The notes beneath the pieces are model-generated. The model was given only the letters and a program-made list of their open reading frames with translations, made no database searches and was not told the DNA's origin. Positions 5,332-62,698 of a stretch of DNA of 64,000 nucleotides are shown piece after piece. How positions within the stretch are numbered: the stretch's first letter is position 1; each line of letters starts with the position of its first letter. The stretch is from a virus. The translations under genes and the position numbers were made by a program. The stretch covers positions 124,001-188,000 of the IMG/VR virus record IMGVR_UViG_3300033571_009404; one strand, written 5' to 3'.

Positions 5332-5967
5332 TCAGCCGCCGTGTCCGTGCAACATCTCTCTCACAATCGATACCGTAGTAGCTACCTTGGGAATCGTCGA
5401 AAGTGCAAAACGATATTTACCAATGATGGCAGCTTTACGTAACTGCATGTACCGATATTTGGCGATGACTTGCCGGATACGATCTTCTACTAACTCATCT
5501 GACAATGCGTTAGCATCCTCGGCAGTTGCATTCGGCTTTTGTTCACATGCCAGCATCAGTCGGAAGGGAAGAACTTTACCCTGCTGCGCCTGAACTGCTT
5601 GCTGATAGGTGAATTCGAATACTTCTTGATCGAATGGATTGAAGATCTTATTGGTTTCATTCAGACGATCTACTTCTTCCTGATGCAGCCGTGCGTATTT
5701 CAGATGCAATGCACTAGCAATCATCTCAGGTGTGATCGATTCCAGCTTAGGGCCAGAAGTCCAACCACGACCATCGAAATAGATATCACCCAAACTAGCA
5801 CGTTCCAAGGGAGGTGCAAAGGTCGAGTAATACTTAGGTAACTCCGCCAGTCGAGACTGAGTGATGGATTCAGTATAAATACCGATTCCCTCTTTCTCAT
5901 TCAGGATCCTGTAGAGATGCAGAGTTACCATGTTGCTGTCTGATACTTCTGCTAATTGTGCTGACAT
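5332..5967 (-). CDS. Hypothetical protein at the end of the fibre operon
   Basis: The 211-residue protein starts at an ATG with AAGGAAAACC upstream, 18 bases after the stop of the last fibre gene. The N-terminal 90 residues look like alpha/beta structure with aromatics; the rest is helical and rich in Gln, Glu and Arg. It has no signal peptide. Its place as the last gene of a fibre cluster is where fibre chaperones and attachment proteins often sit, so a role in fibre assembly is possible, but there is no motif to prove it. Confidence 0.5.
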   Translation of the reverse strand: MSAQLAEVSDSNMVTLHLYRILNEKEGIGIYTESITQSRLAELPKYYSTFAPPLERASLGDIYFDGRGWTSGPKLESITPEMIASALHLKYARLHQEEVDRLNETNKIFNPFDQEVFEFTYQQAVQAQQGKVLPFRLMLACEQKPNATAEDANALSDELVEDRIRQVIAKYRYMQLRKAAIIGKYRFALSTIPKVATTVSIVREMLHGHGG

Positions 5968-5985
5968 GGTTTTCCTTAATGAAGA

Positions 5986-7245
5986 TTACGCGCCCTTAGG
6001 AACCCATGCATATGTCAAGAAACGCCCAGGTGGACATGTTTCAGAATTATATCCACCGTCACCGAAGTCATAGGACTGCCACATGTTAGAGTAGATCGTA
6101 ATCGATCCACCCGCTGGCACCTTATAAAGACCCTGAATGGACTTGTTATCAGAATCCGAACTTTGGGTGTTATATGCCAAACTGATCAAAGATCCATTGA
6201 CATACGCTTCTTGACAGACGCCTTGATTACCTTGACCTGCCATGGTGTTAGAAACCACCACAGCTTTACTGTAGGGGTTAGTCCAACTCCACGATGAACG
6301 AGGTGTAGGGTTATCAGGGACCGTTGGATCTGGTCTACCTGGTGTTCCGCTGAACAAGTAAACCCACTGTCCATCTGAACCAGCAGATAAACGCTTAATA
6401 GCGTCTGCTAACTTCGCTTGGAATTCAGCAGTCGTGTAAGCATTGATCTGGCCAGGTGTAACTCCGTGTGGGTTGCTCTTGTTGCTATCGTGCGCGAGCA
6501 TGGTGCTGATGATGCTATTACCCCGATTGGTGAACTCGGTGTAAAGCGCTGACAGAATGGCGTCTGTTTCCTGTTTGGTGTAGACGTTAATCTGACCTGC
6601 ATACAGTTGGTGAGGATTGTTAAAATCGGAAACGTGTTGTTGGAGTAAGAGCTTCAACGCGGCGTTATGATCTAACTGAGACTGATACTCTCGATCCAAG
6701 TCGGCACGGATCTTGTCGTAAGTTGCTTGACGACCCTGAGCCATACCCGCCATCACCCCGTCAAGCTGACGAGTGATGTATTCCCAACCGTACGTGTCAT
6801 CAGTATCATGCTGGTGAGGTCCAGGGTTCAAGAACCAAGGACGTGCAACTAAATCTTCGTACTTCACTGGACGGTCATCTAAGTCCATCGCATCTAAAGC
6901 TGCGAAGATGTTCTTGCGGTTGTTACTGTAACCACCACCTAAGGCTTGGTAGTCTAAGATGATGTTGTTCGACACTGTCGTGTTGTAGATCACAATGGAT
7001 GCACAGATCTCCTTACCATACTCCCGCGTAGGAATGGGATAGAGATCTGCTGGGGAGTAATCTACTCCCTTCTGGAGAACGTATCCAGTTGCAGCATCAG
7101 TGATCTTCAACGACTCTGTGAAGAAAGCCCCAAAGTCAGGCACAGCGGTCCGTACTTGACGATTGACCAATGTCTGTGCCTCGCCTACGATCTTATTACT
7201 GGAGGCTTTACCAGTACGATCGAGTGGTTTTCTGAAGTCAGCCAT
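5986..7245 (-). CDS. Tail fibre/baseplate appendage protein, paralogue 4 of 4
   Basis: The 419-residue protein shares its plan with the next three genes upstream. It has an N-terminal module (about residues 1-115) with D.TG near the start, FFTESLKI and a GVDYSP motif. Two copies of the NPHxxTxxQINxYT repeat follow (about 208-230 and 258-278). The C-terminal beta domain (about 295-419) contains YVNGSLI and VPAGGSITIY. NPH-type repeats are widespread in tail fibres of tailed phages. The N-terminal module probably attaches to the baseplate, while the variable C-terminal domain may contact the cell surface. The ribosome site is AACGAGG, identical to that of the neighbouring paralogue. Confidence 0.75.
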   Translation of the reverse strand: MADFRKPLDRTGKASSNKIVGEAQTLVNRQVRTAVPDFGAFFTESLKITDAATGYVLQKGVDYSPADLYPIPTREYGKEICASIVIYNTTVSNNIILDYQALGGGYSNNRKNIFAALDAMDLDDRPVKYEDLVARPWFLNPGPHQHDTDDTYGWEYITRQLDGVMAGMAQGRQATYDKIRADLDREYQSQLDHNAALKLLLQQHVSDFNNPHQLYAGQINVYTKQETDAILSALYTEFTNRGNSIISTMLAHDSNKSNPHGVTPGQINAYTTAEFQAKLADAIKRLSAGSDGQWVYLFSGTPGRPDPTVPDNPTPRSSWSWTNPYSKAVVVSNTMAGQGNQGVCQEAYVNGSLISLAYNTQSSDSDNKSIQGLYKVPAGGSITIYSNMWQSYDFGDGGYNSETCPPGRFLTYAWVPKGA

Positions 7246-7256
7246 GAAGATCCTCG

Positions 7257-8432
7257 TTAAGCTGTCGGTACAAACCGCAGGCCATAGATGGTACCAGAAC
7301 CACCAGATGGAGTACCGGTATAGATCGTAATCGTTCCACGACCAGGGACCATGATGTAAGTCTGTACGGATTTAATCCAGTTGGTGTGTTGATTCGTGGC
7401 GTCGGCGATCAAAACGCCATTCACATACATCTGGTTACCCACACGACCAGCACCATTGGAGTTGGTAAACGAGTAGAAAACGGCTTGGTTAAAGTCATTG
7501 TAATGCGACCAACCACCAGTATAGGAATTGACTAACAGCTGCCAATACCCATTCTCACCAGTCGGAGTTTGACTAACAAGCTGTTGCAAGCGTGCGTCCA
7601 GTTGTTCTTTGGTCCACATCTGCAACATCGCAGCGGTAATTCCGTGAGGGTTATCTCTGCGTGCAACGTGAGCTGCTAGATTGGCCTCAATTACTAATGC
7701 ACGGTTATTGAACTCGTTGTACAACTGGTCACGGAATTGGTTCAATTCTGTCTTGGTGTAGACATTTAACTGATCCGGAGTAACCGAGTGAGGATTCTGG
7801 TCGTTATCAATGTGGTTGGTCAGTCGACTTTCGGTGCCGTTTTGCTGAGCACCTAAGACACTGAACATGGCATCGATATACGCGTACAGATCGACTTGGG
7901 CTTCAGGGAAACCGTTAATCAAGATCTGACGAATCCGTGCAATGGCATGCTCCTGATATTCGAAACCAATACGGTTGTCATTACGAGCCATATAGTGAGT
8001 TGGAGGATACTGCGATGCTTTAACTGGTGTTAAGAGAGGTCCCCATTTCCAGTCATGCTGACCAGCAGCTGCGATGTTTTGCATTTGGGTGACGACTTGA
8101 GATTCAGGCACTTCGTAGAAGTCACCTAATACTTGGTACGTCAACATCACGTCTTTGGTCACAGCAGGGTTCTTGATCACTACGATGTTGCAGATTTCCT
8201 TGTTATACAAACCAGAGGGAAGTTCTGCCACATCAGACGGATAATAATCAACACCCTTCACCAGCTCACGGTTGTTATTACCCAGATCGATTAACTTCAT
8301 CGACTCAGTAAAGAAAGAACCGAAGTTCGGCGCGAACAGGCGCATCGGACCATCAGCTAACACATGTGATTCATTGCGAATCAGATTAGTTGGATTCACC
8401 CCTGTGGTGTCCAACGCGTACGTATAACTCAT
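7257..8432 (-). CDS. Tail fibre/baseplate appendage protein, paralogue 3 of 4
   Basis: The 391-residue protein has the shared N-terminal module (DTTGVNPTN, FFTESMKLI, GVDYYPSD) and two NPH repeats (about residues 213-230 and 263-280). Its C-terminal domain has YVNGVLI and VPGRGTITIYTG. ACGAGG stands six bases before the ATG. Only 11 bases separate it from the next gene, so the three smaller paralogues form one transcript unit. Middle and end domains differ more from its paralogues than the N-terminal module does, as expected if the baseplate anchor is kept and the receptor-facing part varies. Confidence 0.75.
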   Translation of the reverse strand: MSYTYALDTTGVNPTNLIRNESHVLADGPMRLFAPNFGSFFTESMKLIDLGNNNRELVKGVDYYPSDVAELPSGLYNKEICNIVVIKNPAVTKDVMLTYQVLGDFYEVPESQVVTQMQNIAAAGQHDWKWGPLLTPVKASQYPPTHYMARNDNRIGFEYQEHAIARIRQILINGFPEAQVDLYAYIDAMFSVLGAQQNGTESRLTNHIDNDQNPHSVTPDQLNVYTKTELNQFRDQLYNEFNNRALVIEANLAAHVARRDNPHGITAAMLQMWTKEQLDARLQQLVSQTPTGENGYWQLLVNSYTGGWSHYNDFNQAVFYSFTNSNGAGRVGNQMYVNGVLIADATNQHTNWIKSVQTYIMVPGRGTITIYTGTPSGGSGTIYGLRFVPTA

Positions 8433-8443
8433 TGGCTACCTCG

Positions 8444-9619
8444 TTAAGAAGACTTGGGGCTGAAACGGTAAACCAGAGGACGACATGCTTGTCCATTAGC
8501 GTTACAATCCACGTAAATCGATCCACCTGCCGGAACCCACACTGCACCTTGCGTACGTTTTGGATCTCGATAAACCAGAGTCTGTGCATCGGTGATCAAA
8601 GTACCATTAACGTAAATGCGCTGCGCCGTACCACGGTCACTGGTCGACATAGATGTCACCGAGTAGAAGCAAGCCACAGCAAACGGGTTAGTTTCACCCC
8701 ATGCCGTGGTATAGTCCCCGTAGCGATATTCATACTGACCATCAGCACCACTTGGGTTAGCAGCAACTGCAGCTTGAATAGCAGCTTCCATCTGTGCAGC
8801 TGTCATCGAACCGATGTTAGCTGCAGTGTCGTTGTGAGGATTGACCGCATTGATGTGCGTATTCACTCGGTTCTGTGCATTGATCATCAACTGATCAAGG
8901 TCTGCATGCATCGAATTCAGAAGGTCATCCACCTTTTGACGGATGTATGCATTGATTTGTTCGGCAGTGACTCGGTGCGGGTTCGACTTGTCATTTAAGT
9001 GTGCGGTCACTAAAGCATCCAGATCATCAGCACGACTCTTGATGTCAGCACCATACTCATCCGCCTTACGATAAATGTCATCCAACTCTAATGTTGCTTT
9101 GATCTCAATCGCTTGACGGATACGGTCCGTGCGATAGACAGCTTCATTGAAGTTATAGATGTCACCGATATCGTGCGTGTGTTTGGTCGGTTCGAATTCT
9201 GTGGGTAAGTCCTTGATGTTCGGCCAGTAAACCTGACGGGCATCTAACGAGGTCGATGCAATCAATTGCTCAATTGCATTGATCTGAGAACTATATTCAT
9301 CACCACCTACGGTCTGATACGTCACCAGTACGCGATCTGATACAGTCGGCTCAGTGATGACAATCATCCCATGGACTTCCATACCAGTGCGCTTAACAGC
9401 TGATGCATTCAAACACGTGAAGGAGTAATGCACACCACGTTTTAATTCCTCATTGGTCGCGGCATCCACAACCTTTACTGATTTACTATAGAAACAGCCA
9501 TGGCGAATAGCAATGGAACGCTTCGATTTGTAGACCAGGGTGTAAAGATCATTGATGACGAGATTATTGAGGCTTTTACCCGTTGGATCAAATGGGTAAC
9601 GAGTCAATAATGGCATCAT
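8444..9619 (-). CDS. Tail fibre/baseplate appendage protein, paralogue 2 of 4
   Basis: The 391-residue protein starts at tandem ATG codons; CGGAG lies upstream. It keeps the module FDPTGKSLNN, FYSKSVKVVD and GVHYSF, then the two repeats KSNPHRVTAEQINAY (about residue 213) and AVNPHNDTAANIGSMT (about 258). The end domain has YVNGTLI and VPAGGSIYVD. A terminator separates it from the 536-residue paralogue upstream, so it is probably first in its own unit. The middle (about 120-200) is helical and may form a trimeric coiled coil. Confidence 0.75.
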   Translation of the reverse strand: MMPLLTRYPFDPTGKSLNNLVINDLYTLVYKSKRSIAIRHGCFYSKSVKVVDAATNEELKRGVHYSFTCLNASAVKRTGMEVHGMIVITEPTVSDRVLVTYQTVGGDEYSSQINAIEQLIASTSLDARQVYWPNIKDLPTEFEPTKHTHDIGDIYNFNEAVYRTDRIRQAIEIKATLELDDIYRKADEYGADIKSRADDLDALVTAHLNDKSNPHRVTAEQINAYIRQKVDDLLNSMHADLDQLMINAQNRVNTHINAVNPHNDTAANIGSMTAAQMEAAIQAAVAANPSGADGQYEYRYGDYTTAWGETNPFAVACFYSVTSMSTSDRGTAQRIYVNGTLITDAQTLVYRDPKRTQGAVWVPAGGSIYVDCNANGQACRPLVYRFSPKSS

Positions 9620-9641
9620 GTTTAAAATACTCCGGAGAAAA

Positions 9642-9671
9642 CCCAGTGACAGATGCTACATTGTCACTGGG
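9642..9671 (-). terminator. Minus-strand terminator between fibre genes
   Basis: A 10-bp perfect stem (9642-9651 with 9662-9671) is followed, reading on the minus strand, by a TTTT run. It lies after the stop of the 536-residue fibre gene. Confidence 0.75.
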
Positions 9672-9687
9672 TCTTTGGAAGGTTACA

Positions 9688-11298
9688 TCAGGTGGTCAAT
9701 GCAGTAGTCAGATTATCAAATGCAGTTTGCATCGAAGTCATCATCTGGACAAACTGGGTAGAAGTCACAAACGACATCGGATTGATGTAGGTGATACCAG
9801 CCGGTTCAACAGTCTGTGCAGTCACGTTATCATCAGCCAGTGCGGACACACCCTTATTGATCTCGTTGACAGTGATGTAATTAGCTGCATTGCGAGTCTT
9901 GACGTACACGCTAACAGTTTTACCATCAGCCGATACCACCCAACCGATTTGGTCACGGGCAGCAACAGGATCTAAGGAGGTCGCTACTGCAAACGTGGCT
10001 GCATTAGCAGCATCATGAGCAGCACGTAAAGCGATGCGCACGTAGTACGATGCGCTGTTTGCATTATCTGCATCACAGAGACCAGAGACAATCCACACCA
10101 GATCAGTTACAGGGACGTAACTCAACGACGGGTCAGCTAAACGAGCAGTACCCAGTAAATGCCAGATATTACCAGAGCCATCACCGCCACCTGAGAACGA
10201 ATAGTTCTTAGACACACCTGCGTTGGCAGCACCACCGAAACGAGAGTCCAGAGATGCCAAGAACTCAGTCATGGTCTGACCGTTAAACTTCTGACTGTTT
10301 GCAGCAGTACCTTGCAGTACGTAGGCGGCGTAATCGTCAAACGAGTAACCGTTGAAGTTGACAGAATTCTGAGCAGTACCTTGCAAGATGGCGTCTCGCA
10401 GTGTAGCGTAGGTCATGCCTTGCAGACGCACCGAGTCATAAGCCACTGCATCGGCTGACAACTTCTGTCCCAGCAAGTTATCAAGCTGAGCCTGGCTATA
10501 AGTACCGACATCAGCAGCCGTAGTACCATGTGGATTACGCGCAGCAGCGTGGGTATTGAACGGTGTGATGATGTTCTTCAACATCGCCTGCATCGTCGAC
10601 AACGGAGACATCATGTAATCGTTGGACAGACCAGCCTCAGCAGCAGCTTGCGTTGCCATGGGGTTGTTCTGCACGTTACCCAGACCCACTTGTGCTTTGG
10701 TCACATTGTGGGGGTTACTCTTGTCAGCGATGTGGTCAGCTAAACCACCAGAACCTTGTTGGCGCAGTTGATCTGCGATATCACCCAGTTTAGCAGTGAC
10801 GTCTTTCAGGCCAACTTGATCGATCAGATCCCAAACGTGGTCAATCACCGGGAATACCAGCGGAACACCAGTGACTTGTTCCCAACTCGTGATACGTGGG
10901 TTTTCCAGACGATCCGATAAGATCTCAGCAATATCTGCTTCTGACAGAGTCCAGCGACCACCAAGCGTCTGATAGCCCAGCGTCAGAGTACCCGACAGTT
11001 CGGTATTCAGGAATTGAATAGAACCATACACCGGTTTAGCTACACCGCGCGATGCGCCAATGTACCAGTAGCCGAGGTAATAGTCGACACCTTCAGTCAG
11101 GGGAACGATAACACCAGAAGTGTCACGGAAGGTAATGGTCAAGCTCTCCGCGTAGAAAGGAGCATAACGCGGAATTACGAGATTATAGTCGCGATAATTG
11201 ACTGGCGTCACCACGCCAATTTCGCCTGTGATTTTATTAACCGGGTTAACGCCAGTAGCATCTTCCGGGTAATCGAATTCACTGGATGTGGTAGCCAT
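9688..11298 (-). CDS. Tail fibre/baseplate appendage protein, paralogue 1 of 4 (largest)
   Basis: The 536-residue protein opens with the same module as the three downstream genes (DATGVNPVNKI, FYAESLTI, GVDYYLGYW) and has two NPH repeats (KSNPHNVTKAQVGLGNV at about residue 193, ARNPHGTTAADVGTYS at about 252). It then carries extra repeats with the pattern LQGT..NS..FNG (about 305-345), like the repeated shaft units of many long fibres. Its C-terminal 190 residues do not match the YVNG domain of the other three. AGGGAG precedes the ATG. A terminator lies just after its stop, so it can be expressed apart from its paralogues. Confidence 0.75.
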   Translation of the reverse strand: MATTSSEFDYPEDATGVNPVNKITGEIGVVTPVNYRDYNLVIPRYAPFYAESLTITFRDTSGVIVPLTEGVDYYLGYWYIGASRGVAKPVYGSIQFLNTELSGTLTLGYQTLGGRWTLSEADIAEILSDRLENPRITSWEQVTGVPLVFPVIDHVWDLIDQVGLKDVTAKLGDIADQLRQQGSGGLADHIADKSNPHNVTKAQVGLGNVQNNPMATQAAAEAGLSNDYMMSPLSTMQAMLKNIITPFNTHAAARNPHGTTAADVGTYSQAQLDNLLGQKLSADAVAYDSVRLQGMTYATLRDAILQGTAQNSVNFNGYSFDDYAAYVLQGTAANSQKFNGQTMTEFLASLDSRFGGAANAGVSKNYSFSGGGDGSGNIWHLLGTARLADPSLSYVPVTDLVWIVSGLCDADNANSASYYVRIALRAAHDAANAATFAVATSLDPVAARDQIGWVVSADGKTVSVYVKTRNAANYITVNEINKGVSALADDNVTAQTVEPAGITYINPMSFVTSTQFVQMMTSMQTAFDNLTTALTT

Positions 11299-12667: not shown

Positions 12668-13684
12668 TCAGTTATCCCAAGTCACTGACTTACCATGGAT
12701 CGTTCCCTGCGGAGCACTGATACCACCTTGAGCCACGGTGATGCTACCATTGAGTAACCGGAAGTCACCCGCCATGACAATGCTACCGCTACCACCAGAA
12801 CCACCACCTGAGCCAGGATCGGCACGCATGTCACCATTCAACTGCAGCGCGCCATTCTCGGTGAAGTTACCGGTATGGGTCGTTGTCGACTTAATGGAGT
12901 TGGTTGTAGACGTCAGGCTGCTGTTTTTGGTCTCCCAAGTGATAGAGTCGGTCGCTACAAGTTTGTAAGTCTTGCTATTGATAACGATATTCTCAGGGAT
13001 ATTAATTAACAGGTTCTTACGGTCCATATCAAACGTACTACCATCTGCATTGGCCATGTAGATACGGTTGTTCCTAGAGTCGATCATGTGCTGATTACCT
13101 ACACCATCCTCATACACCAGCCGACCATTCATGGTGTCTAATACGAGATCATGCGTGGTAAATTCACCATTCGCTTTGGATGTATGTAAATAGAGGTGTC
13201 CCTTATGAGTAGAGACTTCTAAGAAGTACATGTTATCAGCCATGTTATCAGCTGTTAATTCAACAGCATCATCTGGTTGACCACTCCACGCATAGACAAC
13301 TGTCTCTAAACGGCGTAAGTTAAGATCTTGTTTATAGGTTACCCAGAAGTAACCTTTATCGGCATCTTCATCAGCGTACCGATATAGCACCACAATCTCA
13401 CCACGACGCACGTCAGGGGCTGTCATCTGGTTAGGGCTACCCAGACCCATCCATTTCGCTTTGATGGTGTTAGCGGTGTTTGCTTGCGTCTGATAAGGCA
13501 CACCTTGACCATCGGTACCTTCAGTAACTTTCTGATCCATGCTATCGGTCAGCTGTCCTGACAACATCGATAGATCTTCAAACGGCGAGACTTCAATGAT
13601 GGTACTGTTAGTAGGCTTGTTGGCAGCCACGATACCCATCGAATACATCACAAGCTTAGATTTGGTTGCCGATTCATCAGCCAT
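12668..13684 (-). CDS. Putative baseplate spike / puncturing protein
   Basis: The 338-residue protein has an N-terminal part (about residues 60-170) with beta structure, then short strands in regular order from about 170 on (YLEVSTHKGHLYLH, LVLDTMNGRLVYED, IDSRNNRIYMAN). A Thr/Ser-rich ladder follows (ITWETKNSSLTSTTNSIKST) and a Gly/Ser segment near 295. Such strand ladders are typical of the triple-stranded beta helix of gp5/gpV-type spikes, which pierce the outer membrane. I place the start at the ATG at 13684; a longer TTG form (to 13723) is possible, and neither has a strong ribosome site. It is divergent from the SbcC-like gene. Confidence 0.5.
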   Translation of the reverse strand: MADESATKSKLVMYSMGIVAANKPTNSTIIEVSPFEDLSMLSGQLTDSMDQKVTEGTDGQGVPYQTQANTANTIKAKWMGLGSPNQMTAPDVRRGEIVVLYRYADEDADKGYFWVTYKQDLNLRRLETVVYAWSGQPDDAVELTADNMADNMYFLEVSTHKGHLYLHTSKANGEFTTHDLVLDTMNGRLVYEDGVGNQHMIDSRNNRIYMANADGSTFDMDRKNLLINIPENIVINSKTYKLVATDSITWETKNSSLTSTTNSIKSTTTHTGNFTENGALQLNGDMRADPGSGGGSGGSGSIVMAGDFRLLNGSITVAQGGISAPQGTIHGKSVTWDN

Positions 13685-13751
13685 CACAGACTCACTATTG
13701 AAAAAATTGACTAACCTCGTCAATTAGATGTTAAACAAGAGGGAATTGCCC

Positions 13752-21772: not shown

Positions 21773-23281
21773 ATGGAACAAGGCATGGTCTGCTACTGCG
21801 ACGGTGGTTCTCGCAATGGCACCGCTAAAGGTGGAGCAGGTTGGGGAGGCTTTGGCATCCACGGTTATCTCTACAGGCTGGTAGAAGAAGTTAAGAAGGG
21901 TGCAGGGATGGCTGATTGGATCCCCTGCACTGATGGATACGTCACCAAGAAGGAATTTAAGGAAGGCACTAATAAGTTCACTGAAGTCGAAGTCGTCCAT
22001 TATATCGACGGCGTGGGCTCCTTCGGCATGGATGTTACTAACAACTATGCAGAACTTCAGGCCGCCATTAATGCTCTACGGCATGCACAGCAATACGTGC
22101 TCAAGTCTGTTCTGATCGTCTCTGATAGCCGTTACGTCATTGACGGGATGAATGAGTACGTGGACAACTGGGCGTCTTATGGTTGGAAGAAACGCAATGG
22201 CGGTGAAATCGCCAATCTTGATGTATGGCAAGAGTTAGCCGCGCTACGAGACAACCTTGTCAACAATGGGGTCAAGATTGAATGGCGATGGGTCAAGGGG
22301 CACGATGAGGAGCGAGGGAATATCGGCAACACTATTGCTGATCGATATGCTACCATCGGAGTCATGTGTTCTAAGGGTGGTGAAGTACGTATCGAGATCG
22401 ATACTACAGCTGCTCAAGGTTATTGGAAGAACGATGTGGATAAGCATCCGCTTATCTGTCACCGTCGTATGTACTTCAACACGGCTAAGGATGGAAACAA
22501 GCCGGGCGAGTACTACATTGGTGAGCATGGTGCTGACGATGAAATCTTGGGCACTCGTAAGAGTGATGGCTGTTATGGTATCGTACGCTTGAAAGTACCT
22601 GAACCAGTCGTGGAAACCGTGCTGGACCATGCTGTAAGGTCCGCTGGAAGCCTTGACAATATTATGGCAGTGAGGTTAGATAACCTTTTCCGTGTGGATA
22701 CATATCAAGATATCCGCCGTCATGGACAGTTTGCTTTCATTCAGTCCAACAAGTACAACTTGTCGACGACGTGTATTGACGAGCAACCTCTCACCACAGA
22801 GTTCACTCGTCCGATGTTGGCCATGCGGGCCGTTGAGGCTATCGACGCTCTCGCTGACATTCTCAAGTTGTACCAAAGCCGTGATCCAAGTATTACCACC
22901 ACTGACATAACCGATGTCTTCTACACTACGGAAACCAAGGTGAAGAAGAAAGAGGAAGTGAAAGAAACGCTTTTGAAACCTGAGTTCGGCGTAGGCTATA
23001 CCGACGTAAAGGTAGAAGCTAATTTCAATGACGGAGTTAACGGACTGCGTCAGGCACCAGTTATTCTGGTATTGGGATTGGATTTACCTCATCGCAACTC
23101 TCTGAAGCAATTGGAATCGTATTCTCCCAAGGTGACGTTAGTTACATGGAGCGACGAAGTCAATACGTTCAGGTTTGCGACAGTGATCGAAGCGGGTGAC
23201 GACTTGGGTATTTACGTTGGTCAGTATAGCAACTTGCGTTTGATTGCACCTCCAGCTACACTGACTGAGTCAGCAACTTAA
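21773..23281 (+). CDS. Ribonuclease H with a long C-terminal extension
   Basis: The 502-residue protein begins with a type I RNase H domain (residues 1 to about 195): YCDGGSRNG with Asp10, NNYAELQAA with Glu94, SDSRYVIDG with Asp118, and the loop His177 plus Asp190 in KGHDEERGN and TIADRYA. All expected catalytic residues are present, so it should cut RNA in RNA-DNA hybrids, for example primers or R-loops. A glycine-rich insertion sits between the first and second acids. The remaining 300 residues match nothing I know and include a charged linker (about 385-400) and a final beta domain. AGGAG lies six bases before the ATG. Confidence 0.85.
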   Translation: MEQGMVCYCDGGSRNGTAKGGAGWGGFGIHGYLYRLVEEVKKGAGMADWIPCTDGYVTKKEFKEGTNKFTEVEVVHYIDGVGSFGMDVTNNYAELQAAINALRHAQQYVLKSVLIVSDSRYVIDGMNEYVDNWASYGWKKRNGGEIANLDVWQELAALRDNLVNNGVKIEWRWVKGHDEERGNIGNTIADRYATIGVMCSKGGEVRIEIDTTAAQGYWKNDVDKHPLICHRRMYFNTAKDGNKPGEYYIGEHGADDEILGTRKSDGCYGIVRLKVPEPVVETVLDHAVRSAGSLDNIMAVRLDNLFRVDTYQDIRRHGQFAFIQSNKYNLSTTCIDEQPLTTEFTRPMLAMRAVEAIDALADILKLYQSRDPSITTTDITDVFYTTETKVKKKEEVKETLLKPEFGVGYTDVKVEANFNDGVNGLRQAPVILVLGLDLPHRNSLKQLESYSPKVTLVTWSDEVNTFRFATVIEAGDDLGIYVGQYSNLRLIAPPATLTESAT

Positions 23282-23301
23282 CCCATCCCGGAGCTTAACC
23301 C

Positions 23302-23706
23302 ATGAACGCAATTCTACAGTTGTTCTCGGGTATGTTCGGCTTCTTCTTCAAGAGGTTGCCGCCACACACCCAGCGCGCGCTGTTCATGGCATCTTACGTG
23401 GTGCAAAGCTATCGTCGCAACCACGACGATGTCAAAGCAAAAGACGAAAAGGAGATCCTTAAGAAGTTGGATCGAATCTTCGACCTATGCAATGAAGGCA
23501 ATGTCAACGTGATGCAAATGCCCGATCTCGTTTCTAAAGTGATCGTGAAGGGTGTGGTGATCTATGATGTCAACAAGCCAGTCTCGTCTGACGAGGCAAC
23601 AGCCATGGCTCGTGATGTCACAGGTCAGGTACCCGAATGGCTTCGTTATGAAGGTATTGAGACCGACACGGCTCAGCTTTTACAACGCATGCCATCTGCG
23701 GCTTAA
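23302..23706 (+). CDS. Small hypothetical protein
   Basis: The 134-residue protein starts at ATG with CCCGGAG upstream. The first 18 residues are hydrophobic and aromatic (LQLFSGMFGFFFKRL), possibly a membrane-binding or amphipathic helix. The rest is soluble and helical with many Lys, Asp and Val. It follows the RNase H gene by 20 bases and ends before a bidirectional terminator, so the two are probably cotranscribed. Function unknown. Confidence 0.5.
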   Translation: MNAILQLFSGMFGFFFKRLPPHTQRALFMASYVVQSYRRNHDDVKAKDEKEILKKLDRIFDLCNEGNVNVMQMPDLVSKVIVKGVVIYDVNKPVSSDEATAMARDVTGQVPEWLRYEGIETDTAQLLQRMPSAA

Positions 23707-24780: not shown

Positions 24781-26250
24781 ATGTTAACACAACCTTTTGC
24801 TAAGGCTCCTCTCATCATGCCGATGATTAACATCGGCGCACTGCAAGATATTCCGACTGGTAAGTGGGAACGCGGTGCATATGGTGAATACATTCTGAAT
24901 GGTGGCTTAGCTATCATTGAAGGCGTGACTGGCCGTCCGAACATGTTCAAGTCCACCTTCCAACGTTATCGCTCTTTGAGGGCATCTGCTCGTATTCCGC
25001 AATCTGTCGGATCGATCTTCGACACTGAAGTGAACATGCACGAAGGGCACCAGGCGCACTTTGCTGCTGGTATTCCCGAGTTCGAAGGCGAACAAGTGTT
25101 TGACACTGGTCGTTGGGTGATCTCCAACAAAGCGCAATACAGTGGTAACGAGTACTACGCTCTCCAGAAAGAATTCCTGGAAGGTAAGGTCAAGAATGCC
25201 AAGGATCACTCTGTGGTGCTCCCGCTTCTGGATCGTGACAGTGCTCCCATGAAGGTCATCATTCCGTCGTTCTCGAATATGGACTCCATCACTCAGTTTG
25301 ACACTGATGAGATGATGCGTATCCAAAAAGACAACAACATTGATGATTCTTCCGGTAAGGTCATTTATGCCCTCGCTGGTCTGGCTAAGAAGCGTCTCTT
25401 GGACGAAGCACCTCGTCTGATGATTCGTTCGTCGAACTATCTGTCGATGACAGCACACCTGACCAAGAAGATTGAACTGGGTGGTGGTGGACCTGGTAAG
25501 TCGATGTTGCCGGATAAGCAGCTGAAGTTCCTGAAGGGTGATGACGTTATCAAGGGTGCTGGTCCTGGCTTCCTGACACTGACTCACAACCTGTGGTACA
25601 TCTACAACACATCCCCGCTGATCAATCAGGCCGACAAGACTGTGCTGTATCCGAAGAATCGTGATGACGACCTGAATCTGGATACTGACTTAAATGAAGT
25701 CACCATGATCAACCTGCGTGGTAAGTCTGGTGTGTCTGGTCTGCCGGTGCGCGTTATCATCTCGCAGAAGAACGGTGTGATGCCTGAACTGTCGGAGTTC
25801 CGCTACCTGAAGGAAACGGGCAACTACGGCTTTGAAGGTAACAACACAACCTACAACAGTGTCTTCCTGCCGGAAGTCAAGATCATGCGTACGACTATTC
25901 GTTCATTGATTGAAGAGAACCCACTGCTGTGCCGTGCACTGAACATTCAAGCTGAGATGTGTCAGATGGATGAACTGTGGGATGCTGGTATGGGTCCGGA
26001 TGTGCAACAGACACCGAAACAACTGTACGAGACTCTGAAGGCTAAGGGTTATAACTGGGAAGTCCTGCTGAAGACGCGTGGTTGGTATACTTACAACAAC
26101 GATCAACACAAGGTGCCTTTCCTGTCGACCATGGACTTGCTCTGCATGACCCTGCCGGAAGATCATCCTTCGTACTACTTCCCGTTCTGGATGGATCCTG
26201 CAACTAAGGACATCAAGGCCGAATACCGTGAAAAGTACATGACAGAATGA
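24781..26250 (+). CDS. UvsX/RecA-like recombinase
   Basis: The 489-residue protein has a P-loop GRPNMFKST at residues 51-59, which shares the unusual F-K-S core of T4 UvsX rather than the common GKS/GKT. It is preceded by a hydrophobic strand (GGLAIIEGV). A Walker B-like strand followed by polar residues (MKVIIPSFSNMDSITQF, about residues 156-172) fits the UvsX/RecA pattern. Such proteins coat single-stranded DNA and drive strand exchange with ATP. It is about 100 residues longer than T4 UvsX, with the extra length at the C-terminal side. From memory phiKZ-type phages carry a UvsX-like gene near a virion RNA polymerase fragment, as here. GAGG lies nine bases before the ATG. Confidence 0.72.
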   Translation: MLTQPFAKAPLIMPMINIGALQDIPTGKWERGAYGEYILNGGLAIIEGVTGRPNMFKSTFQRYRSLRASARIPQSVGSIFDTEVNMHEGHQAHFAAGIPEFEGEQVFDTGRWVISNKAQYSGNEYYALQKEFLEGKVKNAKDHSVVLPLLDRDSAPMKVIIPSFSNMDSITQFDTDEMMRIQKDNNIDDSSGKVIYALAGLAKKRLLDEAPRLMIRSSNYLSMTAHLTKKIELGGGGPGKSMLPDKQLKFLKGDDVIKGAGPGFLTLTHNLWYIYNTSPLINQADKTVLYPKNRDDDLNLDTDLNEVTMINLRGKSGVSGLPVRVIISQKNGVMPELSEFRYLKETGNYGFEGNNTTYNSVFLPEVKIMRTTIRSLIEENPLLCRALNIQAEMCQMDELWDAGMGPDVQQTPKQLYETLKAKGYNWEVLLKTRGWYTYNNDQHKVPFLSTMDLLCMTLPEDHPSYYFPFWMDPATKDIKAEYREKYMTE

Positions 26251-26257
26251 GGTTACA

Positions 26258-26938
26258 ATGACTGAAGTCACAGCAAAACAACTTTCTATTTACACTGGAA
26301 AGAACAATTCACCGGCACGCAATGTGATCGTGGAGCCGATAATCAACTTCACTGGAATGAAGATTGATAGTGAACTCTATCGTGCTGCTAATGCATTGCA
26401 TTGCACGCTGAGATACCATGCCATCAAGGTTAGTGGTTTACGTGATGTGAAGATTCTGGATGTGACTGGTAAAGAAATTCTCCTTGCTGACTTTAGACCA
26501 GTGATGGAATTCGATGAAGTTGAAGGTGAGGCTATCTTCCGTATGTTCGATTACTTCCAACTGCTGAAGGTACGCCAGTTGCGAAAAATCGCAACTGAAC
26601 AGGAAGCCAAGTTTACCTTCGACGTTGTATTCATCGAACCCGATCCCACCCACACAGTTGTGGTACGTGCCTGGAAGATTGCAAATGCCTATATCCGTGA
26701 ACTGGGTGGTCCTGACGGCAAACGTGATCTGACAGCTGCACCTGATTATAAAAGAGTACAGATACGGCTTGATGGTGATTTCTACCGTGATGAAAACACG
26801 ATGAAACAAGCCAAAGAGATTCTTAACGATGTGCGTTTGGTGTCTTCCAATCCACATAGCCGCACGCGGTTCGTTGAGAACATCTCAAAAGACGTAGTTG
26901 TTTCCGGGAAAAGCGATGGCAAAGATGCGGCAAACTGA
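26258..26938 (+). CDS. Paralogue of the tail tube protein
   Basis: The 226-residue protein shares two blocks with the tail tube protein at 59718-60584. One is FIEPDPTHTVVVRAWKI (tube: FMEPDPTHTKVVKAWLI) followed by GKRDLT (tube: GHRDLT). The other is SSNPHSRTRFVENISKDV (tube: SAANPYQRPAFVQQISADV). Order and spacing are kept. It is shorter and lacks the alanine-rich tail of the tube protein. In other contractile tails, tube-like paralogues cap or start the tube at the baseplate or neck, so such a role is likely. It follows the recombinase gene by seven bases with GAGG in the gap. Confidence 0.72.
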   Translation: MTEVTAKQLSIYTGKNNSPARNVIVEPIINFTGMKIDSELYRAANALHCTLRYHAIKVSGLRDVKILDVTGKEILLADFRPVMEFDEVEGEAIFRMFDYFQLLKVRQLRKIATEQEAKFTFDVVFIEPDPTHTVVVRAWKIANAYIRELGGPDGKRDLTAAPDYKRVQIRLDGDFYRDENTMKQAKEILNDVRLVSSNPHSRTRFVENISKDVVVSGKSDGKDAAN

Positions 26939-27242
26939 AGAAGATCAAAAAGCCCTTGATCTGGGTCTGAGTGTAAACTTGGCCATAGCTTTAAGGAAAC
27001 CCGAGGTTAAGGGCTTGACTACTCCTGTGTATAACACCAACGACACTGTCTTGGATATCCACGGTAAGCGAGTAGGTGTTATCTTCATGTCCCCTAATAC
27101 AGTTGTTAAGAACGACAAAGGTGAATGCCTGTACGGCATTTCCTTTAATACCACTGAAGGTCGTCAAATTCAATATGTCGCACAAGAGACTGTTGAGAAC
27201 GATGACGACTATGCATTGGTTAAATCACATAAACGTCGATAA
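26916..27242 (+). CDS. Small hypothetical protein
   Basis: The 108-residue protein overlaps the end of the tube paralogue by 23 bases. The ATG at 26916 is chosen because CGGGAA lies just upstream; a TTG at 26898 is in frame. The N-terminus is a charged helix; residues 45-95 look like a small beta barrel (LDIHGKRVGVIFMSPNTVV). The C-terminus is basic. Function unknown. Confidence 0.5.
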   Translation: MAKMRQTEEDQKALDLGLSVNLAIALRKPEVKGLTTPVYNTNDTVLDIHGKRVGVIFMSPNTVVKNDKGECLYGISFNTTEGRQIQYVAQETVENDDDYALVKSHKRR

Positions 27243-27725: not shown

Positions 27726-27770
27726 GAAACTGTCAGAAAACATCGTATATATTTCATGAGGGAAGCTACC

Positions 27771-28118
27771 ATGAAGCTCGAAGATTTCACCCTTGGGGAA
27801 TTAGAACGCCACAACAAGCTAGGTGAGGAAGCTGGGGAAGTGCTCAAGGCAATGATGAAGATGCATAACCACGGTAAACACACTGAAGCAGAAGGTATCG
27901 TCTATGACAACATTGGTGACTTTACCGATGAGATTGGTGACTTCCTCGCCGCTGTAGAAAAGATGATCAATCACGGTGACATCGATTACGTGCGGTTAAT
28001 GCAGCGAGTGGCAAAGAAGGGAGCCACCATTACGAAGTTCTTGAAGCATCAGAACTCCGAACCTGTCTATAACTACTCTCTGACGCTACGTAGCGCTGCG
28101 AGTCTTAAACTGGATTGA
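27771..28118 (+). CDS. MazG-like nucleotide pyrophosphohydrolase
   Basis: The 115-residue protein is all helical and shows the paired acidic motifs of the all-alpha NTP pyrophosphatase fold: LGEEAGEVLKAM (Glu19, Glu20, Glu23) and DEIGDFLAAVEKMI (Glu54, Asp57). These residues bind Mg2+ and a nucleotide triphosphate in MazG, dUTPase-2 and related enzymes. Phage members may remove unusual nucleotides or lower alarmone levels; the substrate here cannot be read. The ATG at 27771 is chosen because GAGGGA lies seven bases upstream; the ATG at 27756 overlaps that site. Confidence 0.68.
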   Translation: MKLEDFTLGELERHNKLGEEAGEVLKAMMKMHNHGKHTEAEGIVYDNIGDFTDEIGDFLAAVEKMINHGDIDYVRLMQRVAKKGATITKFLKHQNSEPVYNYSLTLRSAASLKLD

Positions 28119-28124
28119 TTTACC

Positions 28125-28469
28125 ATGAATCAAGAAACAACTACTGCCCCACAGGAAGAAGGGGTTCGTCCCTTGGCGGAGATCGTCACCAACATCCTGA
28201 AACAAGAAGGACATCCCAATCCCGAGGGTTGGATGCGATTCTTGGAAAATAATACTGGGAATCTGGATGTTATGCTCGAAGATGCAATGGTGCGCCGCGC
28301 CCTCTCCGCCATGTTAGTGGATGCGTCCGCTAATGGCGATGGTCTGAATACCATTGACGAACGTATGGCTGTTTTGACAACTGCTACCCGTCCTGAATGG
28401 ATCCGTATCTTCCAACTGAGGGTTGCACCATGCGTGGTCAAAAACCAGCTGCCGCTGACCAAGCACTGA
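28125..28469 (+). CDS. Small hypothetical protein
   Basis: The 114-residue protein starts six bases after the MazG-like gene and has only a weak ribosome site, so it may be translated by coupling. It is helical, with an acidic N-terminus and a tryptophan-containing middle (EGWMRFLENN). Its end overlaps the SLOG-like gene by 40 bases in another frame. No motif is recognised. Confidence 0.5.
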   Translation: MNQETTTAPQEEGVRPLAEIVTNILKQEGHPNPEGWMRFLENNTGNLDVMLEDAMVRRALSAMLVDASANGDGLNTIDERMAVLTTATRPEWIRIFQLRVAPCVVKNQLPLTKH

Positions 28470-29032
28470 TCGATGAAGACGGTGTAGTGATGGACCCTCG
28501 CTGGGTTACTGAATTGCAACGTCTTATCACTGGTGCAGGATTATCTCTGAGTGAACCAATACCGCATGAACTGATCATCGAATTCGATCAACGCATCATC
28601 GTCGCAGGAACCAGATACTTCGAGGACATCGGACTATTTGATTCTCTGATGGATGATGAAGCAGCTCTTTACAAGACTAAGGGCAGCTTCATGTTCATCT
28701 CCGGTGCAGCTAAAACCGGTGCAGATGCTCTGGTGATCGAGTGGTGCAAAAAGCGTGGTTACCCTTATGCCGTCTTCCCAGCTGACTGGGACGCCCATGG
28801 GAAATCCGCAGGATACGTGCGCAATGCTGAGATGGCCAAACATCTCACTAATCTGACCGTCTTCTGGGACGGGAAGTCTAACGGCACTAAACACATGATC
28901 GAATGTGCAGTGGAAAAGGGCGTACGTCCCCACAAGTACATCGTCGATATCCCACCACCGGAAGCCCGTGTACACTCTTATGGTGTCATGAATGCGAAGT
29001 CTGACCCACGTCCGGCTCACAGGGGCTTGTAA
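28430..29032 (+). CDS. SLOG-superfamily (DUF2493/YspA-like) nucleotide-binding protein
   Basis: The 200-residue protein has the DUF2493 order of motifs. IIVAGTRYFED (about residues 56-66) is the first strand and loop. FISGAAKTGADALVIEWC (89-106) is a phosphate-binding loop. FPADWDAHGKSAGYVRNAEM (116-135) is the family signature, and VFWDGKSNGTKHMI (144-157) is the second glycine loop. SLOG proteins bind nucleotides or nucleotide-derived ligands such as NAD or ADP-ribose products. The actual ligand is not visible. TGAGGG lies seven bases before the ATG at 28430, which overlaps the upstream gene. Confidence 0.75.
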   Translation: MRGQKPAAADQALIDEDGVVMDPRWVTELQRLITGAGLSLSEPIPHELIIEFDQRIIVAGTRYFEDIGLFDSLMDDEAALYKTKGSFMFISGAAKTGADALVIEWCKKRGYPYAVFPADWDAHGKSAGYVRNAEMAKHLTNLTVFWDGKSNGTKHMIECAVEKGVRPHKYIVDIPPPEARVHSYGVMNAKSDPRPAHRGL

Positions 29033-59717: not shown

Positions 59718-60584
59718 TTAGACCGGCAGAGCGGACGAACCCAGAGCTTCCACACCTTCCTTGTACGAACGGGAAGTGCGTGCGACGTCTGCCGAGATCT
59801 GTTGGACGAAGGCAGGACGTTGGTACGGGTTGGCAGCCGACAGGTTGATGCCCGAGAGCATCTCTTGTGCGAATGCATCCACACCAGCGCCGACTTGAGC
59901 AATACCGGTGAATTCCACATCGTGGCTCACGGTTTCCATTGCTTGGGTCAGGTCGCGGTGGCCAGTGATCTGACCAGACGACTTGGGCATCATGTTGGTG
60001 ATGAGCCAGGCTTTGACGACCTTGGTATGGGTCGGGTCCGGTTCCATGAACAGCATGGTCGCCGAGTAACGGTCGGCCAGCATGTCGGTCGGAGCAGAAC
60101 CAGTCAGGGTTGCGATTTCTGCAACCTTGGTTTCCGGATCCATCATCAGCATGCGAATCCAGCCCGACAGGAAGCGAGCAACCGGCATGCCGTACTTTTC
60201 CGACCAGCGGAACGATACGTTGGAGCGGTCACGCTTCACGTCGATGAAGTCTTCGTGTTGTTCACCAGCACCACCAACGGCGGTCTGAGCGAAGTCCACT
60301 TGCAGAGTCTGGTTCAGGCCATCAATAGCCATGGCGTGGAGTTCAACCAGCGAACGCAGCGTACCAACCCAGTACTCAGGGTTGTTGAGTAGCTGGAAGC
60401 CGCTCGGTGCCTCAACTAACATGCAGATGAGGTTACGGCGAACGTACGACTGGTTGTTAATCCACTCAGTCAGGTTGGTACTGTAGCCCATCTGACCACC
60501 CAGCTGGAGATTCACCATGGGGGCATGAACGGACGACGAGTACGCCTGACCCGTGAGCAGGGTATCAGCGAGACGAGTAGGCAT
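59718..60584 (-). CDS. Tail tube protein
   Basis: The 288-residue protein lies 11 bases downstream of the sheath gene in the same direction, the usual tube position. The first 230 residues are beta-rich with the blocks FMEPDPTHTKVVKAW and GHRDLT; the last part is Ala/Ser/Gln-rich. Codons are strongly biased, as expected for a highly expressed virion protein. phiKZ-type tube proteins form the inner channel through which DNA and injected proteins pass. A shorter paralogue lies at 26258-26938. AAGGAAATTC precedes the ATG. Confidence 0.8.
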   Translation of the reverse strand: MPTRLADTLLTGQAYSSSVHAPMVNLQLGGQMGYSTNLTEWINNQSYVRRNLICMLVEAPSGFQLLNNPEYWVGTLRSLVELHAMAIDGLNQTLQVDFAQTAVGGAGEQHEDFIDVKRDRSNVSFRWSEKYGMPVARFLSGWIRMLMMDPETKVAEIATLTGSAPTDMLADRYSATMLFMEPDPTHTKVVKAWLITNMMPKSSGQITGHRDLTQAMETVSHDVEFTGIAQVGAGVDAFAQEMLSGINLSAANPYQRPAFVQQISADVARTSRSYKEGVEALGSSALPV

Positions 60585-60595
60585 GTTGAATTTCC

Positions 60596-62698
60596 TTAAG
60601 CAGCGGCTTGATAATCATCGAGGCGGAAAGCTTCGACGTACAGGGTTTCGATGGTCTTCATGTTCGGACCGTAGACCTTGATGCGCAGCGTCCAGCTGTA
60701 GCCACGATCCTTGTCACCCTGGGTGAAGTAGCAATCCGGCACGACGATGATCACGTCATCGAACTTGCCTTCGCACTGCTCAGTGACGAACTTGTTGACA
60801 CGTTCGATCAGTTGATCGTTGTTCAGCTTAACCGAACCCGAGAAGGTGCGGTGAGCCAGTTCGCCGATCTTCATGACTTCGCAGATCGCGTGAGCGATCA
60901 GTTCAGACTTCAGGATCGAAGTGTCGTCACTGTAGACGGTTTGCAGGGCCGGGAAGTAGAAAGTACGACGATCCGACGGTTCCACCCAGTTCAGACCAAC
61001 ATCCCACTCAGTGTTACGAGTGGTACCCGGTGCATTGGGTACGTTGATGTTCTTGAACAGCGTGACCTTGTTGTTCGGGTCGATATCGTAGATCTGACCA
61101 TTGGTCCACTTACCGTTGGACGCACCCATGTACTTGGCACGCTTCACAGCGATTTCAATCACCAGCGGCAGTTCCTTGGTCCAGGTGTTATCCACCAGAG
61201 TACCCGAACGACCGATGATGGACGCACGGACAGCAGGAGTACCGAAGTATTCCGAATCCGGATAGTTACGCACACGAGCCAGCAGAGACTGGGCGATCGA
61301 TTCTTCTTGCGACAGGTTCAGTACCGGACCAGTGGAGTCATGGCAAGCCAGCGTCAGGAAGGTATCCTTACGGGCAGCAATGAAGCTGATCATGTCATAC
61401 TTGGTAGCCATCGGGAAGCCGGTATCGTACATATCGGAAACCGGATACAGCGCCAGGTTCTGATAATCGTGAGCCGGATCAGCCCAATTGATCACGTCGG
61501 CCGACACCAGAGCAGCGAAGTTATCGTCGCTCATGTCGCCATCCGAACCACCTTGAGCGTACAGGTTCATGCTTTCGCTGAACTTGAACTCTTCATCAGT
61601 AGTTACCTTGATCTGGTAGGTGTGATACGGCGAGTTCTGCGAAGACACGCCACCATACAGGTTGAAGCGATAGGCTTGGTCGGTGTCGCCTGCGACTAAG
61701 TCGGAATAGGCATCGACGTACGGCAGTTCAGCAGCCACGAACAGATCCAGCAGCGTCTTGATGTTGGCATCGTAAGTATGGAACTTACCGAAGTCACCAT
61801 AGACCGGAGGATTGGTCGAGGAAGGATCGATCGACTGGTAAGCGGCCGGGAATACGTCACCCACGTATTGCTGAGCATCCAGATACGGGTTGATGTAGTC
61901 AGGCTTCAGTACGAAGTCAACGGACTGTTCTGCGTTGATGTTGGAAACGAGCTTAGGCGTTGCCATGTCAGTGCTACGCGAGGTAACAGCAATACGGAAC
62001 GGATAGACTTTTTCCTTGGTCAGCAGACGACCATCGATCGGGGTGTTCGACAGCAGCGTCGGAGCGTAGATACGCAGTGCGCTGTTGTTACCCCAGTCAC
62101 CGAAGGACGAGATCTCAGCGTCGTGCAGCGGGTAACGCTTGGACTGAGTACCTGCGGTGGTGTCAACTTGATCACCGTCGATAATGGCGCCCTGACCGAA
62201 GGTCGAGTTACCATCTTCATCGAGGGGGATTTCCACGCCGATGAACTTGACCGAGTAACCAGCCACAGTCGGAGTGGCGGTCGATTTGACCGGATCACCG
62301 TTGACGTCTTTCTTGATCGAGCCGTCAGAATTGCGCTCGTAGTTGTCCAGGGTAGTAGCCAGGACGTCAGCGTAGATACGCACCGTTGCCGTCTTGGCAT
62401 CAGCAGGTTTCAGACGCTTAATGAAGTGCGTGTTGGCTGCAGCCGAAAGCTTGTTGGACAGCACCGTTTGGTGAGTCGCCCACTTTTGGCGCAGGTCAAA
62501 CGAGTCGGATCCATAGACCAGATCGCGGGAGTTACCGACGACCGGGCTTGCAATTTCAGGACCTTTCTTCGTGAAGAGATAAACGAAAGGGAAGTGCTGC
62601 GGACGCACTTCTGGCTCGTAGGCCGGAGTCACGGTACTGCTATCTTTGGTACCCAGATTCCGTACCATCGGTGCCGCGTTGATAAATGGAGACGACAT
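60596..62698 (-). CDS. Contractile tail sheath protein (phiKZ gp29-like)
   Basis: The 700-residue protein begins with SSPFINAAPMVRNLG and has the length and beta-rich, Asp/Thr/Tyr-rich make-up of phiKZ-type sheaths. A long variable middle (about 200-450) and a better ordered C-terminal region (about 540-690), ending in LRIKVYGPNMKTI, fit sheath proteins, where the C-terminal part contacts the tube. Codons are biased to the frequent ones. It is first in its unit, with CAGGATACAG before the ATG, and the tube gene follows. Confidence 0.85.
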   Translation of the reverse strand: MSSPFINAAPMVRNLGTKDSSTVTPAYEPEVRPQHFPFVYLFTKKGPEIASPVVGNSRDLVYGSDSFDLRQKWATHQTVLSNKLSAAANTHFIKRLKPADAKTATVRIYADVLATTLDNYERNSDGSIKKDVNGDPVKSTATPTVAGYSVKFIGVEIPLDEDGNSTFGQGAIIDGDQVDTTAGTQSKRYPLHDAEISSFGDWGNNSALRIYAPTLLSNTPIDGRLLTKEKVYPFRIAVTSRSTDMATPKLVSNINAEQSVDFVLKPDYINPYLDAQQYVGDVFPAAYQSIDPSSTNPPVYGDFGKFHTYDANIKTLLDLFVAAELPYVDAYSDLVAGDTDQAYRFNLYGGVSSQNSPYHTYQIKVTTDEEFKFSESMNLYAQGGSDGDMSDDNFAALVSADVINWADPAHDYQNLALYPVSDMYDTGFPMATKYDMISFIAARKDTFLTLACHDSTGPVLNLSQEESIAQSLLARVRNYPDSEYFGTPAVRASIIGRSGTLVDNTWTKELPLVIEIAVKRAKYMGASNGKWTNGQIYDIDPNNKVTLFKNINVPNAPGTTRNTEWDVGLNWVEPSDRRTFYFPALQTVYSDDTSILKSELIAHAICEVMKIGELAHRTFSGSVKLNNDQLIERVNKFVTEQCEGKFDDVIIVVPDCYFTQGDKDRGYSWTLRIKVYGPNMKTIETLYVEAFRLDDYQAAA

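Follow-up and report, generated by a model that had tools for sequence, protein, structure and literature searches.

Tail and recombination genes of the window

The window is the whole 64,000-nucleotide stretch that was analysed (G000:C1:124001-188000), within a virus record of 310,114 bp. The sheath, tube and tail genes, together with a multisubunit RNA polymerase (RNAP), mark the source virus (G000) as a phiKZ-like jumbo phage. The open frame that is the subject of this analysis, P0001, lies among the following features of the window.

12668-13723, minus strand: relative of PHIKZ164, as a separate gene; the structure of PHIKZ164 has been solved (6orj, 9xph)
24781-26250, plus strand: UvsX-like recombinase (PHROG 97, E 3e-24), directly upstream of P0001
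26258-26938, plus strand: tube-like paralogue P0001 (ATG start, open frame, 226 residues)
26925-27242, plus strand: small ORF of 105 residues, its first 14 bases shared with the end of P0001
33660-34730, plus strand: weak relative of PHIKZ174 (E 0.0023 and 0.4), a candidate hub or initiator
59718-60584, minus strand: major tail tube protein P0002 (288 residues), sheath-adjacent
60596-62698, minus strand: tail sheath protein (PHROG 3242, E 4e-201)

An earlier note on this DNA had placed a shorter paralogue of the tail tube protein directly after the UvsX-like gene and far from the tail genes. The first part of this placement is correct, as the UvsX-like gene ends at 26250 and P0001 begins 7 bases further on. 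The second part holds for the tube and sheath genes, which lie about 33 kb away with the tube gene directly downstream of the sheath gene on the same strand, but not for other tail-gene relatives, which are scattered across the window. The PHIKZ164 relative in entry 36za, present there as three chains, was named 'tail terminator' by the depositors; PHIKZ164 itself we take to be the trimeric central spike (6orj). The three chains in 36za, together with 6orj, suggest that the relative is the central spike, and the 'tail terminator' label was not used as evidence. PHIKZ174 is present as six chains in 9xph, alongside PHIKZ164. Several tandem relatives of the tail tip protein PHIKZ131 are also encoded at 5986-11298 on the minus strand.

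A block with the gene order RNase H, gp153-like, UvsX, small genes and RNAP beta is found in the related phages FLC9, FLC6, Goslar, phiKZ, LucasX, DT01 and PhiPA3. None of these seven phages has a match at this locus for P0001, for the small ORF that follows it or for a MazG-like gene, whereas each of the remaining genes tested in the block has a same-place relative in at least one of the phages (FLC9 or another). Since P0001 lacks a counterpart here while the remaining genes have one, it is an insertion into the conserved UvsX-RNAP locus. The position does not prove a role outside the virion, because phiKZ-like phages have their virion genes in scattered places and the phiKZ relative of the RNAP-beta gene in this block, gp149, carries the annotation of a structural head protein. 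Upstream regions in the window were also scanned for k-mers in a crude way to infer promoter timing, and no usable motif emerged. The MazG-like gene (27756-28118, plus strand) is a second insertion within the block. A SLOG-family protein (YAcAr, PF10686) is encoded at 28397-29032 on the plus strand, with same-place relatives in FLC9, Goslar and FLC6.

P0001 is a homolog of the tail tube protein

P0001 and the tail tube protein of its own genome are homologous. The two proteins share 35% identity over 102 residues (BLASTP, E 5e-19), with a Smith-Waterman score of 164, compared to 30.8 ± 4.7 (maximum 69) for 2000 shuffled sequences. When all six frames of the 310-kb record were searched with the tube protein, only two places matched, P0001 and the tube gene itself. 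P0001 also passes the Pfam family PF23806 (Phage_TTP_14) with 45.1 bits, against a curated cut-off of 27, and matches PHROG 3185 (E 7e-12). The two conserved blocks previously described from the sequence (EPDPTHT..V.AW followed by G.RDLT, and NP..R..FV..IS.DV) are both present and in that order. The likeness exceeds these two common blocks, since residues 6-219, nearly the whole protein, align to the tube protein of FLC9 (gp30). Features within P0001, all on the plus strand, are listed below.

26435-26527: beta-hairpin segment, residues 60-90, shortened (31 residues, compared to 44 in the tube protein of this genome)
26636-26674: block 1a, EPDPTHTVVVRAW, residues 127-139, conserved
26717-26734: block 1b, GKRDLT, residues 154-159, conserved
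26849-26896: block 2, NPHSRTRFVENISKDV, residues 198-213, conserved, in the C-terminal helical region

Structure prediction, proposed in the earlier note as a check of a shared tube fold, gave a tube-like fold for P0001, so that the paralogy is borne out by BLASTP, PF23806, the predicted fold and its PDB matches alike. The AlphaFold2 model, obtained with a 40-sequence alignment, has a pLDDT of 74.3 and a pTM of 0.67, and it depends in part on sequence homology because this alignment contained tube proteins. The best PDB matches found with Foldseek were the phiKp24 tube (8bfk, E 1.6e-11) and the phiKZ tubes (9xps, 9xpf); E-values against the phiKp24 and phiKZ tubes ranged from 2e-11 to 2e-9, with query-normalised TM-scores of 0.58-0.65. 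P0001 thus resembles the phiKZ-type tubes PHIKZ030 (9xpf, 9xps), Goslar (11ec) and phiKp24 gp119 (8bfk) in its PF23806 and PHROG 3185 membership, fold core and conserved blocks. It differs from them in being an extra copy that is not sheath-adjacent, in its shorter hairpin and N-terminal arm, and in its long branch in the tree (see below).

Core sandwich and C-terminal block are both retained in the model of P0001, and two other segments are shortened. The hairpin segment, bounded by two conserved glycines (residues 60 and 90 of P0001), spans 44-45 residues in 34 tube proteins and 25-40 residues in 15 paralogues, and its strands are 9 and 10 residues long in the P0002 model but only 4 and 4 in the P0001 model. 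The N-terminal part, which extends to the RN motif, consists of 21 residues in P0001, compared to 49-69 in tube proteins, such that about 30 residues of the N-terminal arm are missing. P0001 therefore lacks the full hairpin and N-terminal arm expected of a major tube protein. The C-terminal part contains 54 residues, compared to 58-95 in tube proteins and 22-33 in a group of N-terminally extended paralogues; most of the C-terminal extension, the element that reaches the next ring in phiKp24, is thus present in P0001, as is an aspartate near the sheath contact. In the phiKp24 tube, the hairpin and N-terminal arm form within-ring contacts (PMC9700779). From the shortening of these elements, we infer that the within-ring contacts of P0001 are weakened. 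Segment lengths and the monomer models, whose confidence is middling (pLDDT 74), would point to a loss of self-assembly.

Extra tube-like genes in other genomes

A tblastn search with the tube protein against 50,697 phage records gave matches in 252 records at 254 places, with Burkholderia phage FLC9 accounting for both extra places. Profile searches identified three tube-family copies in FLC9, two in the source phage and one each in six other named phages; a P0001-type gene was absent from phiKZ, PhiPA3, Goslar, FLC6, LucasX and DT01. The two extra genes of FLC9, which is an isolated phage, are gp262 and gp258; they are annotated as hypothetical, and no description of them was found in a literature search of limited scope. 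Plasmid records gave no match, and bacterial genomes gave one, a tube gene that adjoins a sheath gene. It lies on a contig of 245 kb (L140, JARLJL010000015.1) that carries these jumbo-phage genes and was assigned by binning to a Sulfuriferula metagenome assembly.

When IMG/VR was scanned with the single P0001 protein, the one match was a contig encoding an identical protein, and alignments were required to detect relatives. With these, sheath-distant extra tube-like genes were found in G009, G011 and G035 (two each), G036, G012, G014, G018, G020, G024, G016 and a 314-kb contig (L183). Including FLC9 and the source phage, 13 genomes carry such genes, and no linkage of the extra copies with tail genes was seen. 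In eight (FLC9, G009, G035, G014, G020, G036, G012 and L183), a thymidylate synthase gene (thyA) lies within about 2 kb of the extra copy; HNH-like genes and two unnamed families recur in this thyA-linked block, which in FLC9 also contains Thg1, RtcB and nucleotidyltransferase genes. FLC9 gp262 and gp258 and the copies in G009, G011, G035, G036, G012, G014, G018 and G020 resemble P0001 in being sheath-distant, with a shortened hairpin and long branches. Most of them are thyA-linked, and some have long N-terminal extensions, whereas P0001 adjoins UvsX. In the source phage, thyA is at 22287-23399 of the record and P0001 at about 150258, and other genes of the thyA block are also located elsewhere.

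In a tree of 49 sequences, one branch separates paralogues from tube proteins (support 87/87), and P0001 groups with other paralogues in a set of 14 (support 96/87), on an end branch of 3.4, compared to a median of 0.26. Constraining P0001 to group with its own tube protein, as for a recent duplicate of it, was rejected in the full tree (AU test, p 0.016); grouping it with all tube proteins was not (p 0.2). When the longest-branch sequences were left out, P0001 fell between the groups, and its grouping with its own tube protein was no longer rejected (p 0.12). Since the placement shifts upon their removal, long-branch attraction is possible, and P0001 may be orthologous to the thyA-linked copies or may have arisen as a separate duplicate that changed fast.

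The tube proteins of G009, G011 and G035 are 100% identical, while their paralogues share 81-96% (paralogue A) and 65-87% (paralogue B) identity, and thus evolve faster than the tube and than most neighbouring genes. Their dN/dS ratio (omega) is 0.15-0.34, with no sign of positive selection. An omega in this range, combined with identities below that of the tube, indicates that the paralogues are maintained without being held to the rate of the tube, and they are under purifying selection.

Possible roles of P0001

The reading that we prefer as best supported, with a probability of slightly less than one half, makes P0001 an accessory protein of tube fold that probably does not polymerise and probably acts in the infected cell. 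P0001 would be made together with UvsX and would build no tube, because the elements for phiKp24-type within-ring contacts appear to have been lost. It would remain soluble in the infected cell and bind a putative partner able to recognise the tube fold as well; the candidates are a host factor sensing the tube protein, a partner in tail assembly, or the tube subunits themselves.

The earlier note had pointed to contractile tails in which such paralogues cap or initiate the tube. P0001 would then be a minor virion protein that forms an end ring of the tube, as a baseplate initiator or neck cap. The precedent is provided by T4 gp48 and gp54, which form hexameric rings (PMC8718954) and, as P0001, are tube-like but distinct from the major tube subunit. 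The PDB matches of the P0001 model include chains of the T4 baseplate and neck as well as other baseplate or cap entries, and the retained C-terminal block and aspartate near the sheath contact would suit docking at the end of a tube. Many large genomes of the FLC9-like clade carry extra copies, and the phiKZ baseplate also holds a tube-like chain (9xqs_I), although none of twenty phiKZ proteins compared with the PDB maps to entry 9xqs. However, gp48 and gp54 are essential baseplate proteins, whereas P0001 is clade-restricted. An initiator or cap would be expected in every phage of the group with such a tail, yet the six phages named above as lacking a P0001-type gene have working tails, where functional replacement is conceivable, and the tube chains in the phiKZ neck structure (9xps) are gp30 itself. 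In the source phage, relatives of tip genes (PHIKZ164 and, weakly, PHIKZ174) are encoded separately, and P0001 is itself an insertion into the UvsX-RNAP block with shortened within-ring elements. Related copies lie amid genes of nucleotide and tRNA metabolism and evolve far faster than the tube onto which they would dock. Given these points, a cap or initiator is not supported, and we consider it doubtful.

Two further alternatives each have a rather small probability in our estimate. As a regulator of tail assembly, P0001 would bind tube subunits or the tube end and block premature or excess polymerisation, for which a protein that keeps the tube fold and C-terminal block with shortened within-ring elements would be suited; most phiKZ-like phages, however, manage without such a gene, and the lack of tail-gene linkage of the extra copies also argues against it. 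As a decoy or antagonist of tube-sensing host immunity, P0001 would be a monomeric tube mimic that keeps a DSR2-like sensor occupied but untriggered. DSR2 binds the tube protein as a monomer (PMC10981675, PMC11087589) and not as a hexamer (PMC11087589). The apparent loss of self-assembly elements in P0001, its accessory nature, and the duplication and fast change of such copies are consistent with this role. Against it, the known activator of DSR2 is a siphophage tube, a monomeric tube protein might equally trigger the sensor, omega is well under 1, and P0001 has no match to a defence family (PADLOC returned nothing). To our knowledge, no DSR2-type sensor has been described for phiKZ-type tubes.

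Tube proteins are ring-forming conduits. Copies that are kept by selection with shortened assembly elements, away from tail loci, would point either to a clade-specific tail part or to the tube fold being used elsewhere than in the tail. A more novel reading, in which a jumbo-phage clade turned tube copies into soluble, fast-changing in-cell proteins such as immune-sensor decoys, is improbable; if true, it would mean that a virion building block had been recruited as an accessory or counter-defence factor.

Several of the extra genes have unusual architectures. The group-B paralogues (L127, L126, L128, L129, L130, L133 and FLC9 gp258) have a short basic N-terminal motif and low-complexity sequence, followed by the tube-like domain. 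In G024 (L131, G024:C1:1-14000), the gene at 5661-6935 on the minus strand encodes a tube-like domain (PF23806, 58.6 bits) and, C-terminal to it, about 200 residues of other sequence. In G016 (L132, G016:C1:53000-68000), the gene at 6728-8011 on the plus strand encodes a 427-residue protein with two weak tube-like stretches per chain, and three related genes in tandem (424-485 residues) come after it. On the L183 contig (IMGVR_UViG_3300013939_000001), the tube-like ORF (5731-6390, plus strand) overlaps the thyA frame (6344-7711, plus strand).
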